A stretch of DNA of 7,820 bases from Elusimicrobiota bacterium (lineage in GTDB: Bacteria > CG03 > SLGR01 > PWQF01): positions 1-7,820 of the forward strand of contig PWOI01000127.1 in NCBI GenBank assembly GCA_003557485.1. The letters run 5' to 3'. Position numbers and translations under genes: made by a program. Under the pieces are notes generated by a model. That model searched no databases, had not been told where the DNA came from, and saw only the letters and a list, made by a program, of their open reading frames with translations. Positions 2,604-7,820 of the stretch are shown here, in pieces; positions within the stretch are counted from its first letter, which is position 1, and each line of letters starts with the position of its first letter.

Positions 2604-2629
2604 GACTCGGACCCTCCGCCCTGTAGATT

Positions 2630-2648
2630 CCTTTTGAAGGTATTTTTT
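2630..2648 (+). terminator. weak terminator-like hairpin with T tract
   Basis: A small hairpin (CCTT, loop TTG, AAGG at 2630-2640) is followed by TA and six T residues (2643-2648), starting 26 nt after the stop of the dikinase-like gene. The position suits an intrinsic terminator, but the 4-bp stem is short and could be chance. Confidence 0.3.
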
Positions 2649-2722
2649 ACAGACTTTCCTCTGCCCGCCATTTCTTTAATAGTAAAAATATTAACAGCTA
2701 AACAATAATTTTCCAATCATCC

Positions 2723-2755
2723 TCACGGTAAAAAACCCTATGGTTTCACCCGTGA
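2723..2755. promoter_or_regulatory. two-part dyad upstream of the sulfur operon promoter
   Basis: TCACGG (2723-2728) pairs with CCGTGA (2750-2755). Inside it AAACC (2733-2737) pairs with GGTTT (2742-2746) across a CTAT loop, leaving an internal loop of 4 and 3 nt. It lies about 26 bp upstream of the predicted -35, so it may be a protein-binding dyad for the downstream operon. If transcription starts further upstream, it would be a folded leader RNA. I do not recognise it as a known riboswitch. Confidence 0.35.
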
Positions 2756-2780
2756 TAAATCTCCGGTGCAATCTCTATAC

Positions 2781-2809
2781 TTGACAATATTAGTAAATTT
2801 TATTATAAG
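2781..2809 (+). promoter_or_regulatory. sigma-70-like promoter of the sulfur-transfer operon
   Basis: A perfect -35 hexamer TTGACA (2781-2786) is followed after 17 bp by TATAAG (2804-2809), or after 16 bp by TTATAA (2803-2808). This would start transcription near 2815 and leave a leader of roughly 65 nt before the threonine synthase-like gene. The downstream region is very AT-rich, so the exact -10 is uncertain. It is the only convincing promoter I see for the operon, whose later genes are nearly contiguous. Confidence 0.6.
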
Positions 2810-2834
2810 TTTATTAATAGTTAAATACTAATAT
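2787..2834. repeat. inverted repeat spanning the predicted -10 region
   Basis: ATATTAGTA (2787-2795) is matched by its exact reverse complement TACTAATAT (2826-2834), with centres about 39 bp apart, so the arms flank the predicted -10 and start site. A second pair, AATAGTT (2816-2822) and AACTATT (2841-2847), overlaps it, and TATTATAA occurs three times (2801, 2834, 2860). These could be operator half-sites for a repressor. The base composition makes chance repeats likely, so confidence is limited. Confidence 0.3.
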
Positions 2835-2881
2835 ATTATAAACTATTTTTGAGTTTAAATATTATAAAAAGGTAACATATA

Positions 2882-4102
2882 ATGAGATTTAAAAACTTAC
2901 AATGCAGAGAATGTCAGAGAAAATATCCGGCAGAGGCTATTTACGTCTGTGAATACTGTTTTGGCCCCCTGGAGGTTATCTATGATTATGAGAATATAGA
3001 TATTTCCCGGGAGTCGATATCAAAAGGGCCTTTAAGTCTCTGGCGCTACAAGCCCCTTCTTCCTGTTCATACTGACAGCCCCGTTACTATAGGGGAAGGG
3101 CTGACTCCTCTTGTCAGGGCCGGCAACCTCGAGAAAGAGCTTGGAATTAAAGAACTCTATATAAAGAATGACTCTGTCAACCCTACATTCTCATTTAAAG
3201 ACAGAGTAGTTACTGTGGCAGTTTCCAGGGCAAGGGAGCTGGGGTTTGATACTGTGGCCTGCGCATCTACAGGGAATCTCGCCTGTTCTGTGGCTGCATA
3301 CGGTAAAAAAGCCGGGCTGAAAACAGTGGTTTTTATTCCCGCTGATCTTGAGAAGGGAAAAGTAATCGGGGCAGGTATATACCAGCCTCACCTGGTGGGG
3401 GTTAAGGGAGATTACGACCAGGTAAACCGCCTCTGCGGCGAACTGGCGGGAACCTTCAACTGGGGTTTTGTGAATGTAAACCTGCGCCCCTATTATGCCG
3501 AGGGCTCCAAGACTCTGGGTTTTGAGGTGGCCGAACAGCTTGGTTTCAGGGCGCCGCGTCAGGTTGTTGTGCCGATGGCATCGGGTTCTCTCCTTACCAA
3601 GATATACAAGGGATTAAAGGAATTTGAAGAGCTGGGAATAATAGATGAAGCCGGAACCCGGTTTTTCGGCGCCCAGGCCGCCGGAGCCGATCCCATAGCC
3701 GAAGCTGTCAGGAAAGACGAAGATATCATAAGGCCCGTAAAAGTGAAAACTATTGCCAAATCACTGGCTATCGGAAACCCTGCCGACGGCTATTACGCCT
3801 GGAATGTCATTAAGAAATCCGGAGGCTATGCAGCTTCTGTCAGCGATAATGAAATTGTGGAAGGGATAAAACTTCTTGCCTCCACCGAAGGAATATTTAC
3901 CGAAACCGCGGGCGGGGTTACGGTTGGATCGTTGAAAAAACTTATTGAAGCCGGGAAGATAGACCCGGACCTTTCAGTTGTTATATATATAACCGGCAAT
4001 GGACTCAAGACCCAGGAAGCGGTTGAGAAAAGCGTTTCTAAAATAGAGGAGATCGATCCTTCTCTTGAATCGTTTAAAGAAACCTGTCCTTGGGCAGGGT
4101 GA
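2882..4102 (+). CDS. thrC: zinc-ribbon threonine synthase homologue (PLP-dependent, possible thiocarboxylate-using sulfhydrylase)
   Basis: A 406-residue enzyme of the type II PLP fold. An N-terminal zinc ribbon has Cys8, Cys11, Cys23 and Cys26. The PLP lysine is Lys106 in NPTFSFKDR; CASTGNLACS (127-136) is the substrate loop, PMASGS (231-236) takes the place of the usual phosphate-binding loop, and TGNG (371-374) lies near the cofactor ring. The overall pattern (SGSLLTKIYKGL, LAIGNPADG, TEGIFTETAGG) fits a threonine synthase branch I associate with cyanobacteria and other bacteria. The default reaction is O-phosphohomoserine to threonine and phosphate. Because a Gly-Gly sulfur carrier and its E1 follow directly, it may instead, or also, accept sulfur from a protein thiocarboxylate to make homocysteine; that part is inference. 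ATG at 2882 follows AAAAAGG by 9 nt. It is the first gene of the operon, and the next starts 22 nt after its stop. Confidence 0.88.
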   Translation: MRFKNLQCRECQRKYPAEAIYVCEYCFGPLEVIYDYENIDISRESISKGPLSLWRYKPLLPVHTDSPVTIGEGLTPLVRAGNLEKELGIKELYIKNDSVNPTFSFKDRVVTVAVSRARELGFDTVACASTGNLACSVAAYGKKAGLKTVVFIPADLEKGKVIGAGIYQPHLVGVKGDYDQVNRLCGELAGTFNWGFVNVNLRPYYAEGSKTLGFEVAEQLGFRAPRQVVVPMASGSLLTKIYKGLKEFEELGIIDEAGTRFFGAQAAGADPIAEAVRKDEDIIRPVKVKTIAKSLAIGNPADGYYAWNVIKKSGGYAASVSDNEIVEGIKLLASTEGIFTETAGGVTVGSLKKLIEAGKIDPDLSVVIYITGNGLKTQEAVEKSVSKIEEIDPSLESFKETCPWAG

Positions 4103-4110
4103 TATTAAAA

Positions 4111-4116
4111 AAGGAG
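4111..4116 (+). promoter_or_regulatory. Shine-Dalgarno fixing the start of the sulfur-carrier gene
   Basis: AAGGAG lies 8 nt before the ATG at 4125. This favours a 90-residue carrier over an upstream start at 4065, which would lie inside the threonine synthase-like gene and add 20 unconserved residues. Confidence 0.8.
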
Positions 4117-4124
4117 TAGAAAAT

Positions 4125-4397
4125 ATGGCAAAAGTAAAGATACCGCAGCCGCTGAGAAATCTTACGGGCGGCAATAATGAGGTCTCCCTGACGGGAAGTA
4201 AAGTCGGAGAGGTTCTTTCGGAACTGGAAAAGGAATATCCTTCAATAAAAGAAAGGTTGAGGGATGACGAAGGGAAGCTTAGGAGATTTATAAATATATT
4301 CGTCAACGGAGATGACATAAGGCATCTTGAAGGTGAGGCTACACCGGTAAGTGACAGCGACGAAATAACTATACTTCCGGCCATAGCTGGGGGCTGA
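4125..4397 (+). CDS. MoaD/ThiS-family ubiquitin-like sulfur carrier protein
   Basis: A 90-residue beta-grasp protein with the layout of MoaD: an N-terminal strand (AKVKIPQPLRNLTGG), a helix with EVLSELEKEYP, then FINIFVNGDDIRHLEG (55-70), and finally ITILPAIAGG at the C-terminus. The terminal Gly89-Gly90 is free, so the protein could be adenylated and thiocarboxylated without prior trimming, unlike Wolinella HcyS, which carries an extra residue. Its position between a PLP enzyme and an E1 points to a role as sulfur donor in amino acid synthesis, like CysO, more than molybdopterin synthesis: no MoaE, MoaA or MoaC is present. It is 22 nt after the threonine synthase-like gene and 1 nt before the NIL gene, so translation is probably coupled. 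Molybdopterin or tungstopterin synthesis remains an alternative. Confidence 0.88.
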   Translation: MAKVKIPQPLRNLTGGNNEVSLTGSKVGEVLSELEKEYPSIKERLRDDEGKLRRFINIFVNGDDIRHLEGEATPVSDSDEITILPAIAGG

Positions 4398-4398
4398 T

Positions 4399-4644
4399 AT
4401 GGCAAGAATAAAAAAACAGCTTGATTTGATTTTTCCCGAAGAACAGGTAAAGGAACCGGTCATATACAGGGTGAGCAAAGAATATGATGTTGTTTTCAAT
4501 ATCCGCCGGGCAAAAGTTACGGAAACCACTGGGGAACTGGTCCTGGAATTTGAGGGAGATGAGGGTGAAGTGGAGAAGGCCGTAGAGTATCTTTCCGGGA
4601 AAGGGATAAGGGTTCAGCCCCTTACCCATGACATAGTGGAGTAA
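4399..4644 (+). CDS. stand-alone NIL-domain protein
   Basis: An 81-residue protein consisting almost entirely of one NIL domain, the ferredoxin-like fold found at the C-terminus of the methionine ABC transporter ATPase MetN, where it binds methionine. The family pattern is seen in QVKEPVIYRVSKEYDVVFNI (16-35), RRAKVTETTGELVLEFEG (36-53) and the helix EVEKAVEYLSGKGI. No ATPase or ferredoxin domain is attached. NIL domains, some fused to ferredoxins, are also linked to anaerobic homocysteine synthesis in methanogens. Here it sits between the sulfur carrier and its activating enzyme. It could sense methionine or homocysteine, or act as an accessory subunit of the sulfur transfer; the sequence does not decide between them. 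The start codon follows the carrier stop by a single base, with only a G-rich run as a possible ribosome binding site. Confidence 0.82.
   Translation: MARIKKQLDLIFPEEQVKEPVIYRVSKEYDVVFNIRRAKVTETTGELVLEFEGDEGEVEKAVEYLSGKGIRVQPLTHDIVE
4638..4641 (+). promoter_or_regulatory. Shine-Dalgarno pointing to a GTA codon
   Basis: GGAG, within the end of the NIL gene, is followed by 8 nt and then by GTA at 4650, exactly where the E1 family N-terminus should begin. No ATG, GTG or TTG in that frame lies between the upstream in-frame TGA (4629-4631) and the GTG at 4740. Confidence 0.5.
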
Positions 4645-4649
4645 ATACA

Positions 4650-5666
4650 GTAGATACAAACAGATATATAAGGCAGCAGCTTTTTAAACCCGTAGGAGAA
4701 GAAGGGCAGCGGAAACTGCAGGCTTCAAAAGCGGTTATTGTGGGATGCGGCGCCCTGGGTTCAAGGGTCAGTGAAGAACTTGTGCGTTCCGGCTGCGGTA
4801 CTGTCAGGATAATAGATAGGGATTTCATAGAACTGTCAAATCTTCAGAGGCAAGTCCTTTTTACCGAAGAAGATGTAAGAGAGAACCTTCCCAAGGCGGT
4901 TGCCGCCGGAAAGCATCTGGGAGAAATAAACTCTGAAGTAAAAGTAGATGCAGTAGTAGACGATTTGAATTTCTCAACAGCAGAAAAGTACCTCTCCGGG
5001 GCAGATATAATTCTTGACGGGACAGATAACCTGGAAGTTCGGATGGTTATTAATGATTACGCCTGGAAAAACGGAATTCCATATATCTACGGCGCGGCGG
5101 TTTCATCATACGGAAGCACAATGAACATTATTCAGGGAAAAACGGCATGTCTTCGGTGTCTCTACCCTTCTCTCCCTCCCCCGGGAGAACTGGATACCTG
5201 TGATACTGCGGGAGTTATATATCCCGTTCCGGGAGTTATAGCGTCAATAGAAGCGGCAGAAGCAATAAAATTTCTGACCGGGAATAAGTTGAGGGAGGGC
5301 CTTCTTTTCATAGATCTCTGGAGCGGCCGTTTTGAAAGCTTTAAAACCAGTTCATACGGGGAATGTCCCTGCTGCGCTCTTGGGAATTTTGAGTTCCTTA
5401 CTTCCGGTAAAGGAAAAAGAATAACCACACTCTGCGGCAGGAACGCTATACAGATTACCCCTGTTGAGGGAGAAGGGGAAATAAATTTTAATGAACTGAA
5501 AGAAAAACTTGACCGTGTAGGCAGGACTGAAGGTAATAAATTTATAATGAAGTTTAAAGCAGAAGGTTATGAGATAAGTATTTTCCGCAACGGAAGGATT
5601 ATAATCCAGGGAACAGACGATATAAATAAGGCAAGGAGCCTCTATTCCAGGTTCATAGGCGAATGA
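4650..5666 (+). CDS. HesA/MoeB/ThiF-family E1-like adenylyltransferase for the sulfur carrier, non-canonical start
   Basis: It adenylates the C-terminal glycine of a ubiquitin-like carrier as the first step to a thiocarboxylate. Counting from the GTA at 4650 gives 338 residues. The family's RYxRQ opening appears as RYIRQQLF (5-12), followed by the nucleotide loop GCGALG (32-37), Asp56, NLQRQ (64-68), Lys82, DGTDN (123-127) and Arg131. Cys167/Cys170 and Cys239/Cys242 make the structural zinc site. Cys184, before DTAGVIYPVPG, is the likely persulfide or thioester cysteine. About 80 residues after the zinc site form a C-terminal domain (LCGRNAIQI, IFRNGRIIIQGT). No rhodanese domain is present. 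The first canonical start in frame, GTG 4740, would delete the conserved N-terminus and first beta strand, so I reject it. GTA initiation, a sequence error, or a -1 shift from the NIL gene are possible. Its end overlaps the next gene by 4 nt (ATGA). Confidence 0.82.
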   Translation, partial: VDTNRYIRQQLFKPVGEEGQRKLQASKAVIVGCGALGSRVSEELVRSGCGTVRIIDRDFIELSNLQRQVLFTEEDVRENLPKAVAAGKHLGEINSEVKVDAVVDDLNFSTAEKYLSGADIILDGTDNLEVRMVINDYAWKNGIPYIYGAAVSSYGSTMNIIQGKTACLRCLYPSLPPPGELDTCDTAGVIYPVPGVIASIEAAEAIKFLTGNKLREGLLFIDLWSGRFESFKTSSYGECPCCALGNFEFLTSGKGKRITTLCGRNAIQITPVEGEGEINFNELKEKLDRVGRTEGNKFIMKFKAEGYEISIFRNGRIIIQGTDDINKARSLYSRFIGE

Positions 5667-6820
5667 ATGCCCGAAGTGAAAACATAATATATTTTGATAA
5701 CGCAGCTACCTCCTGGCCAAAGCCGGAGACTGTCTATAATTCTCTCTGCAGTTTTCTTAGGGAAAAGGGTGCAAATCCCGGCCGCAGCGGCCACCGGCTG
5801 GCCCAGGAAGCCGAGTGGGCTGTAGAGGAAACCAGAAATATTCTTGCAGATTTTTTTGGGGTTGAAAAGAGTGAAAGAATAGTATTTGCCCTTAACTGCA
5901 CCGATGCTCTTAATATTGCCATACACGGGGTTGTGAAGAAAGAAACACATGTTGTTACTACAGCTCTTGAGCATAACTCGGTTACCCGTGTATTGAATGA
6001 ACTTAAGGATAGAAAGTCGATCCGGGTTTCGGTTGTAGAGCCCGACAGTAAAGGTTATATAAGGCCGTCTTTGATCTCGGAAAAAATAAAGAAAGACACC
6101 TCACTTATAATCATCAACCACGCCTCCAATGTTACCGGCGCCATTCAGCCGGCCGGTGAAATTGCTCAAATTGCCCGAAGGAAGGGAATCCCTCTTCTGC
6201 TTGATGCGGCCCAGTCATCCGGTGTGGTGGACCTTGATCTAAAAAAGTCCGGAATAACACTCTGCGCCTTTCCCGGTCATAAAGGCCTTTTAGGGCCTAC
6301 AGGAACCGGTGGACTTTATGTATCAGAGGATGTTGATATCTCTTCCTTTCGCCAGGGAGGGTCCGGGAGTGATTCATCCTTGCCGCGTCAGCCGGAGGAA
6401 TATCCTTTCCATCTGGAAGCCGGGACTCAGAATACCTCTGGGATAGCGGCTCTTGCTGAAGGAGTGAAATATGTTAAAGATAATTTTAAAGAAATAAAGA
6501 AAACGGAAGAGGAAATTCTTTCTTTTCTTTTAGAAGAATTTGAAAAAATTACCGGATTGAAGGTGTATGGGTCCAAGTCGACAGGTAGCCGCCTGGGCGT
6601 CATTTCGATAAATTTGAAGGGGTGGTCTCCTGATGACCTCGGGGCTGTACTGGACGAGAATTTCAACATAGCGGTGCGTAGCGGGCTGCACTGCGCTCCC
6701 GGAGCACACCGGTGTTTGGGAACTTTTCCGGAGGGGACGGTAAGGATTTCCTGCGGTCCGTTCAATACTTTGTCCCAGGCCGAGGTTCTCGTTCGGGCTC
6801 TGCGGGAAATAGGAAAGTAA
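5663..6820 (+). CDS. class V aminotransferase-fold cysteine desulfurase
   Basis: A 385-residue PLP enzyme that removes sulfur from cysteine as a protein-bound persulfide, giving alanine. The opening IIYFDNAATSWPKP (8-21) is typical of the SufS-related group that includes Enterococcus EF2568. Catalytic features are His104 in EHNS, Asp181 and Gln184 in LLDAAQSSG, the PLP lysine Lys207 in GHKGLLGPTG, and the persulfide cysteine Cys344 in RSGLHCAPGAH. Length and motifs are complete. In this operon it most likely charges the E1 or the carrier with sulfur; no SufU, SufE or IscU partner is visible, which argues against general Fe-S assembly as its only job. The ATG overlaps the stop of the E1 gene by 4 nt, so translation is probably coupled. 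A selenocysteine lyase activity cannot be excluded. Confidence 0.88.
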   Translation: MNARSENIIYFDNAATSWPKPETVYNSLCSFLREKGANPGRSGHRLAQEAEWAVEETRNILADFFGVEKSERIVFALNCTDALNIAIHGVVKKETHVVTTALEHNSVTRVLNELKDRKSIRVSVVEPDSKGYIRPSLISEKIKKDTSLIIINHASNVTGAIQPAGEIAQIARRKGIPLLLDAAQSSGVVDLDLKKSGITLCAFPGHKGLLGPTGTGGLYVSEDVDISSFRQGGSGSDSSLPRQPEEYPFHLEAGTQNTSGIAALAEGVKYVKDNFKEIKKTEEEILSFLLEEFEKITGLKVYGSKSTGSRLGVISINLKGWSPDDLGAVLDENFNIAVRSGLHCAPGAHRCLGTFPEGTVRISCGPFNTLSQAEVLVRALREIGK

Positions 6821-6841
6821 AAGAAAGGAAGAATGTGACAG

Positions 6842-7633
6842 ATGAAAGAAAAGATGTTCGGTAAAATAAGCGAAAAAGCGGTAACAAGGGCTATTGTTGA
6901 AGAGTTTTCCCGGCAGTTCTCAGATTATGTGGAATCAGACTGCCTTATTATAGGGGGCGGCCCTTCCGGCCTGATATTCGCCCGGGACCTTGCAGAAAAA
7001 GGTTACAAGGTTCTTGTTGTTGAGCGCAATAACTACCTGGGAGGCGGTTTCTGGTTGGGCGGATACCTTATGAACAAGATAACGGTAAGGGCTCCTGCCC
7101 AGAAAATACTTGAAGAACTGGAAATTCCCTACACTACCAGAGAGGAAGGGCTTTTTGTAGCTGACGGCCCTCACGCCTGTTCTGCCCTGATAAAAAGCTC
7201 CTGTGACGCGGGGATAAAGATAGCAAATATGACTACCTTTGACGATCTGGTATACAGACAAGGGAAGGTTGGGGGGGCAGTTATAAATTGGACTCCTGTT
7301 GAATCTCTGCCAAGGCAGATCACCTGTGTTGACCCTATAGCTATGGAGTCCGCAGTTCTGGTGGACGCAACCGGCCACGATGCGGCGGTGCTTAACAAAT
7401 ACATAGAAAGAAAAGGGGAGAAACTTCCCGGTTTCGGAGCTATGTGGGTTGAAGAATCCGAGGAGGCAATTGTTGAACATACCGGCAATTTTGCCCCGGG
7501 CCTTTATGCCTGCGGGATGGCGGTATCTACCGCTTACGGTCTGCCCAGAATGGGGCCCACTTTTGGTTCAATGCTTGCCTCGGGAAGAAAGCTTGCCGGG
7601 ATTATAGATAAGGATCTATCTAAATGCCGGTAA
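6842..7633 (+). CDS. thi4: THI4-type thiazole synthase with cysteine at the sulfur-donor position
   Basis: A 263-residue flavoprotein-like enzyme that in this family builds the thiamin thiazole moiety, as ADP-thiazole carboxylate, from NAD and glycine. The dinucleotide loop is GGGPSG (38-43), with Glu61-Arg62 at the end of strand two; GGGFWLGG (67-74), INWTPVE (148-154), GHD (178-180) and PRMGPTFGSML (235-245) are family signatures. The residue two before the conserved Asp-Pro is Cys162 (ITCVDP). Yeast and plant THI4 have their sacrificial cysteine there, and archaeal sulfide-using enzymes have histidine. It may therefore use its own cysteine once, or be re-sulfurated by the operon's relay; the latter is speculation. 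ATG 6842 follows AAAGGAAG by about 10 nt and lies 21 nt after the desulfurase gene. Database names such as ribose-1,5-bisphosphate isomerase for this family are misleading. Confidence 0.87.
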   Translation: MKEKMFGKISEKAVTRAIVEEFSRQFSDYVESDCLIIGGGPSGLIFARDLAEKGYKVLVVERNNYLGGGFWLGGYLMNKITVRAPAQKILEELEIPYTTREEGLFVADGPHACSALIKSSCDAGIKIANMTTFDDLVYRQGKVGGAVINWTPVESLPRQITCVDPIAMESAVLVDATGHDAAVLNKYIERKGEKLPGFGAMWVEESEEAIVEHTGNFAPGLYACGMAVSTAYGLPRMGPTFGSMLASGRKLAGIIDKDLSKCR

Positions 7634-7657: not shown

Positions 7658-7820
7658 TTGAGAGATGAAATAAAACAGGTAACTATAGTAAACGAAAGCC
7701 CTCTCGATGAAATAAAAATTGTTTCCAGTCTCCGGGATATCATAGGTGCTGCCGGCAAAGAGAAGTTAAAAATAACTGCTATCCAGCAGAAGATCCTGCC
7801 CGGCTGTGGCGGTGATACAG
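7658..7820 (+). CDS. hypothetical protein, 5' part only
   Basis: An open frame of 54 codons runs off the window end. It begins with TTG at 7658, 24 nt after the THI4 stop, and the frame is open back to a TAA at 7631-7633, where no ATG or GTG occurs. The predicted peptide starts LRDEIKQVTIVNESPLDEIK and later contains LPGCGGDT, a Cys-Gly-Gly turn that could bind a metal or nucleotide. I do not recognise the family. There is no strong Shine-Dalgarno. Codon use resembles the upstream genes, and the same strand and short gap suggest it belongs to the operon. Confidence 0.5.
   Translation, partial: MRDEIKQVTIVNESPLDEIKIVSSLRDIIGAAGKEKLKITAIQQKILPGCGGDT

Follow-up and report, generated by a model that had tools for sequence, protein, structure and literature searches.

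In Streptomyces, the homocysteine synthase MetM reportedly acts on O-phosphohomoserine and receives its sulfur from thiocarboxylated MetO, in agreement with the title of that work as cited in PMC12172450. Homocysteine made from a carrier thiocarboxylate is also the proposed product of the HcyS/HcyF/HcyD/MetY route of Wolinella succinogenes, reportedly described by Krishnamoorthy and Begley in 2011. Protein-thiocarboxylate chemistry is further used by the CysO/CysM/Mec+/MoeZ system of Mycobacterium tuberculosis. According to the passages of PMC12172450 that deal with it, MetM of Streptomyces albulus is homologous to threonine synthase (ThrC), acts with the carrier MetO and is associated with an S-adenosylmethionine (SAM) riboswitch (Hasebe et al. 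2024, AEM 90:e01247-24); the same passages cite this work for MetM homologues in cyanobacteria. Another route to homocysteine, which uses DUF39, a NIL/ferredoxin protein and COG2122, has aspartate semialdehyde as its starting point and does not pass through homoserine (PMC5764234). Here we analysed a stretch of 7,820 bp (the window), which is the entire contig C105 (GenBank PWOI01000127.1) of an Elusimicrobiota bacterium (assembly of 2.07 Mb in 212 contigs, 86.6% complete) and carries an operon for a ThrC-like pyridoxal phosphate (PLP) enzyme, a sulfur carrier and accompanying sulfur-transfer proteins.

The operon is predicted to encode a homocysteine synthase of the MetM/MetO type together with its own sulfur-supply chain, and we put the probability of this function, as judged from sequence, at about 0.8. 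Since the reaction matches that published for MetM/MetO of Streptomyces in 2024, it is a well-supported rediscovery and not a new reaction. New are the dedicated set for sulfur loading (E1 adenylyltransferase and cysteine desulfurase), the recurrent NIL-domain protein, the SAM riboswitches across several phyla and, probably, the coexistence of the DUF39 route with MetM in one lineage.

The arrangement of a ThrC-homologous PLP enzyme next to a sulfur carrier gene is shared with MetM/MetO, as far as that system is described in the passages mentioned. The window operon adds a NIL-domain gene and its own E1 and desulfurase genes, followed by THI4, DUF6775 and cysK, and it lacks the SAM riboswitch that those passages give for Streptomyces. 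The carrier belongs to the same family as CysO, but the PLP enzyme is ThrC-like and not CysM-like (33 bits with the cysKM profile versus a cut-off of 344), an M67 protease is missing from the operon, and no rhodanese domain was detected in the E1 by the Pfam scan. In contrast to the HcyS/MetY route, the host lacks MetY (PF01053), and the activated substrate would be O-phosphohomoserine instead of O-acetylhomoserine. A NIL-domain protein is also used in the DUF39 route, which is present in relatives of the host, whereas the window operon contains neither DUF39 nor a ferredoxin domain.

The gene calls were backed by curated Pfam cut-offs. All six genes of the compact operon named in an earlier, sequence-only reading scored above them on the + strand, with spacings of 22 nt, 1 nt, about 5 nt, a 4-nt overlap and 21 nt, in agreement with the gaps of at most 22 nt given there. 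The features are as follows:

2604..2881, + strand: AT-rich upstream region with the putative operon promoter; no riboswitch
2882..4102, + strand: MetM-like PLP enzyme (P0001) with threonine-synthase fold, 406 amino acids; TIGR00260 295.7 bits (above the thrC cut-off), PALP
4125..4397, + strand: sulfur carrier (P0002) with ThiS/MoaD fold, MetO/CysO-like, C-terminus AIAGG; ThiS PF02597
4399..4644, + strand: stand-alone NIL-domain protein, 81 amino acids; PF09383, 67.7 bits
~4650..5666, + strand: E1 adenylyltransferase (P0004) of the ThiF/MoeB type with C-terminal extension and unusual start codon; ThiF PF00899
5663..6820, + strand: protein of the cysteine desulfurase family (class V); TIGR01977, 444 bits
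6842..7633, + strand: member of the THI4 family, of a divergent type with Cys (ITCVDP), and the second such copy in the genome; TIGR00292, 240 bits
7658..7820, + strand: 5' end of a DUF6775 gene with TTG start; remainder on contig C60, followed by cysK

In a phylogenetic tree, a MetM-like clade of 31-32 sequences was split from 29 ThrC sequences with 100/100 support, and the host genome has one protein on either side of this split, the MetM-like P0001 and a canonical ThrC. At 28 positions, the MetM-like group has a fixed residue that is rarely seen in ThrC. The residue after the STGN motif, for instance, is L133 in the group and T or A in ThrC; R202 takes the place of an N found in 28 of the 29 ThrC proteins, and T342 that of a P found in all 29. 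P0001 did not qualify as a canonical ThrC: it lies outside the ThrC group, and L133, R202, T342 and T377 differ from the ThrC majority. Compared to ThrC of Thermus thermophilus, L133 replaces the Thr following STGN, and N200, R202 and Y205 replace Ser155, Asn157 and Arg160 (numbering counted from the alignment). The positions of L133, N200, R202 and Y205 presumably line the substrate pocket, as we take it from ThrC structures. The PLP-binding lysine of P0001 is K106 within NPTFSFKDRVV.

The regulation of related genes points to methionine. In the actinomycete Nonomuraea, the gene of a clade member is immediately preceded by a SAM riboswitch and immediately followed by the gene for a carrier ending in ...VAGG. 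SAM riboswitches were present in 11 of 37 related loci (Nonomuraea and 10 of 36 further loci), always directly upstream of metM, and none was found elsewhere in the DNA of the 36 further loci. The ten further loci belong to Chloroflexota, Deltaproteobacteria/Myxococcota, Zetaproteobacteria and two other genomes, and the clade members with a riboswitch come from at least four phyla. As independent evidence, the riboswitches of the relatives suggest that the clade serves methionine. The cyanobacterial MetM homologue has no SAM riboswitch (PMC12172450), and we therefore did not take this element as defining for MetM/MetO. In Deltaproteobacteria and Zetaproteobacteria, some of the larger sulfur operons lie under a SAM riboswitch.

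A scan of genome contigs with the PLP enzyme resulted in 80 loci with 58-93% identity, which span cyanobacteria, Zetaproteobacteria, Chloroflexota, Deltaproteobacteria, Nitrospinota, Abditibacteriota, Rokubacteria and archaea. A ThiS-type (Gly-Gly) carrier gene adjoins the gene for the PLP enzyme in 79 of these loci; the exception, L088, ends 1.3 kb downstream. When all fetched loci were considered, some places being counted repeatedly, a carrier was present beside 100 of 108 high-scoring genes and beside none of 36 canonical thrC genes, a figure that applies to close linkage because only about 1.4 kb downstream is visible at most canonical loci. The five-gene order of the window from the PLP enzyme to the desulfurase is shared only with L011 and L012 among the 80 loci, both of which come from another family of the order to which the host belongs. 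The recurrence of this order, together with the enzyme/carrier pair in 79 of 80 loci, shows that the arrangement did not arise by chance. The operon is conserved in relatives; a lack of such conservation had been named by the earlier reading as speaking against its proposal. Among the three genomes, identity was 89-93% for MetM, 69-73% for the desulfurase, 74-78% for the E1 and 70-75% for canonical ThrC. The idea that the entire operon had recently moved between the families was rejected: desulfurase and E1 diverge as canonical ThrC does, so that constraint on MetM explains its high identity equally well. Larger operons elsewhere add CysK or CysM and sulfite reductase, and some an M67 protease. 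At L057:8001-13439 and L072:8001-14480, which represent such operons of Deltaproteobacteria and Zetaproteobacteria, metM, carrier, NIL, cysteine synthase, E1 and sulfite reductase genes are joined.

To see which other routes exist, the host genome was searched family by family. The separate true threonine synthase that the sequence-only reading had proposed to look for is present: canonical thrC begins a thrC-thrB-lysC cluster on contig C148, where thrB (homoserine kinase) and lysC were read from the sequence. Full-length PF01053 proteins (MetB, MetY, MetZ, MetC) were not found in the host, which yielded only partial matches of 27-32 bits; MetX was found neither in the host nor in its relatives, and a MetH homologue is present in the host. 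Of 22 genomes with MetM, 14 lack a full-length PF01053 protein; the same holds for 8 of the 11 genomes of a second set, which overlaps partly with the first and again includes both sister genomes. The PF01053-free genomes of the second set include five with 97-100% completeness and low contamination. At the same stringency, 13 of 14 control genomes had a full-length PF01053 protein. DUF39 was present in 6 of the 22 MetM genomes, among them both sister genomes. Ten of the 22 have neither PF01053 nor DUF39, so that MetM is the one candidate for homocysteine synthesis found there with the routes searched; these genomes include Hydrothermarchaea, a Nitrospinaceae and a Rokubacteria genome.

In the mechanism that we propose, the desulfurase would take the sulfur from cysteine, and the E1 would adenylate the Gly-Gly end of the carrier, which would then be loaded with this sulfur as thiocarboxylate; both the source of the sulfur and the direction of its flow are read from the gene content. 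O-phosphohomoserine would come from the homoserine kinase, whose gene lies elsewhere in the genome, next to that of the true threonine synthase. From it, MetM would form the PLP-bound beta,gamma-unsaturated intermediate, to which the carrier sulfur would add instead of water. The resulting homocysteine would be methylated by MetH. The earlier reading had proposed this transfer of carrier sulfur at the O-phosphohomoserine intermediate of a ThrC-fold enzyme, and it agrees with all tests made: the separate clade, the near-universal carrier linkage, the riboswitches of the relatives, the canonical ThrC encoded apart from it beside homoserine kinase, and the lack of PF01053 and MetX enzymes in the host. 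The NIL protein is most likely a sensor of methionine or homocysteine or a partner for product release. We also put forward, as a tentative and less likely extension, that the operon may be a cystathionine-free transsulfuration device, in which sulfur would pass from the cysteine made by CysK via desulfurase, E1 and carrier to MetM, with NIL as a true third component of MetM systems that senses methionine or homocysteine or helps to release the product. If true, one shared ligand would link the NIL domains of MetN, the DUF39 pathway and MetM.

Several observations weigh against homocysteine synthesis as the function of the operon. No Rfam family came near its threshold upstream of the window operon, and the window has no SAM riboswitch. 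The tree included the Nonomuraea gene and not the sequence of the characterised S. albulus MetM. According to PMC12172450, a cyanobacterial homologue acted in vitro as threonine synthase and as deaminase. The expectation of the earlier reading that metB, metY, metZ or metX would be missing held for the host, but 8 of the 22 MetM genomes also carry a full PF01053 enzyme. DUF39 was not found in the host assembly (86.6% complete) or in the window operon. In G022, a genome of the same genus (82% complete), DUF39, NIL/ferredoxin and canonical THI4 genes follow one another, and the canonical, His-type THI4 gene of the host (G000; contig C115, L180:7499-8098) is cut by the contig end exactly where G022 continues into the DUF39 locus. 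Because the gene order of G022 matches the locus severed in the host, the host probably also has the DUF39 route, lost in an assembly gap, and the view that it has no other homocysteine route had to be given up. A complete conventional pathway in the host, which the earlier reading had named as speaking against its proposal, would exist only in a loose sense, as DUF39 is an alternative route and not a conventional one. DUF39 and NIL/ferredoxin are also encoded by two MetM-containing genomes from the host's order and by the same-genus genome G022, in which no MetM was seen. With the DUF39 route probably available to the host, the operon might be redundant or might be meant for a different product.

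We consider it quite unlikely that the PLP enzyme acts as a second threonine synthase of the ordinary kind, with adjacent carrier genes that serve cysteine, thiamine or similar. Its score above the thrC cut-off of TIGR00260 and the in vitro activities of the cyanobacterial homologue would fit such a function, but the same genome has canonical ThrC together with thrB and lysC, and neither the 100/100 split with changed motif residues nor the near-universal carrier linkage and the SAM riboswitches of the relatives would be expected from it. Carrier, E1 and desulfurase could instead feed a cysteine synthase in the style of CysO/CysM, with MetM as passenger or as second client of the carrier. The best solved relative of the carrier is indeed M. 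tuberculosis CysO (3dwg, E 2e-22), cysK follows the operon, and in several loci CysM and an M67 protease lie between carrier and E1. This is nevertheless unlikely: cyanobacterial loci hold just metM and the carrier gene, cysK on C60 and its L011 homologue encode sulfide-type CysK, and the desulfurase of the operon points to cysteine as source of the sulfur and not as product.

A role of the operon in thiamine thiazole synthesis, in which carrier, E1, desulfurase and THI4 would provide the thiazole sulfur, would account for THI4 and a ThiF-type E1 in one gene cluster. It is highly improbable in view of the separate canonical THI4 in the genome, the lack of THI4 in the L012 operon and at the other MetM loci examined, and the riboswitches of relatives, which respond to SAM and not to thiamine pyrophosphate; to our knowledge, THI4 does not use a ThiS carrier. 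Cysteate synthase is a relative of ThrC, and a weak match of the PLP enzyme to TIGR03844 (64 bits) would agree with another sulfur-containing product, such as cysteate for coenzyme M with sulfite as donor. We regard this as extremely improbable, since the score is far below the cut-off of 324.9, the window showed no further gene for coenzyme M synthesis, and both the linkage to the carrier and the SAM riboswitches speak for methionine.

The accessory proteins of the proposed homocysteine synthase show the following features. NIL adjoins metM in the phylum of the host as well as in Chloroflexota, Abditibacteriota, Zetaproteobacteria, Deltaproteobacteria/Myxococcota and Rokubacteria, and the window protein shares a NIR(R/Q/M/T)A signature and a D-[VI]-[VI]-E-type tail with the NIL proteins beside metM in other phyla. 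The E1 matches NF009123 over its full length, but below the cut-off of that profile, and has the cysteine motifs CxxC...CPCC and DTC(186)DTAGV. The desulfurase has its PLP lysine in H-K206 and Cys344 in RSGLHCAPGAH.

No ATG, GTG or TTG start codon for the E1 is present before 4740, although the conserved N-terminus begins near 4650, and none is present in the corresponding regions of the three related genomes (4632-4740; L011:9766-9814; L012:9431-9539). At the codon 8 nt downstream of a conserved GGAG, L011 and L012 have ATA and the window has GTA. The desulfurase gene of L011 seemingly also starts with ATA and overlaps the E1 stop. These observations suggest that AUA start codons are used in the lineage of the host.

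The earlier reading had placed the operon at 2882-7633. The six genes stand but the end does not, because the last 121 bases of the window are identical to the first 121 of contig C60, and this overlap adds DUF6775, which C60 completes, and cysK, which comes next. The order DUF6775-cysK is kept uninterrupted in L011, whose full-length homologue (L011:12786-13550) of the gene at the window end matches DUF6775. This gene, located between THI4 and cysK (7658-7820; L162:1-675; L011:12786-13550), encodes a cysteine-rich C-terminal end. The family is described as 'probable metallopeptidase', but no HExxH motif was present in the L011 or host copies. It was therefore rejected as the missing carrier protease, being no obvious metallopeptidase, and is possibly an inactive zincin-like protein.

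The operon THI4 is 43-45% identical to canonical full-length THI4 from the genomes of two relatives. It did not pass as sulfide-type THI4: a Cys (ITCVDP) replaces the active-site His of GLHVDP, with three additional residues. The earlier reading had counted THI4 as part of the route; as it is missing from the L012 operon (one of three sister operons), and likewise from the other MetM loci examined, its place in homocysteine synthesis is doubtful. In several genomes from the order of the host (L164:1856-4307, L179:600-3002, L182:977-4763), canonical THI4 lies beside NIL/ferredoxin and DUF39, an adjacency that links genes for thiazole and homocysteine synthesis.

A scan for sigma-70-like promoters upstream of the operon had its best match at 2854-2883, but the counts of promoter-like sequences were not above those in shuffled sequences, and a terminator scan performed no better than shuffles. 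The gene upstream (18-2603) encodes a protein of 861 amino acids with a PEP-synthase-type PPDK_N domain at about residues 298-665 and an N-terminal part of about 300 amino acids without Pfam match; it is outside the operon in L011 and L012.

In most genomes, genes of the MetM clade probably carry the annotation of a threonine synthase. At least one route to homocysteine was considered to be still undiscovered by Price et al. 2018 (PMC5764234), and reassigning the clade as homocysteine synthases would fill the missing step in 10 of the 22 genomes checked. The recurrent NIL partner raises a concrete question of its role, as NIL occurs in three separate methionine-related systems.

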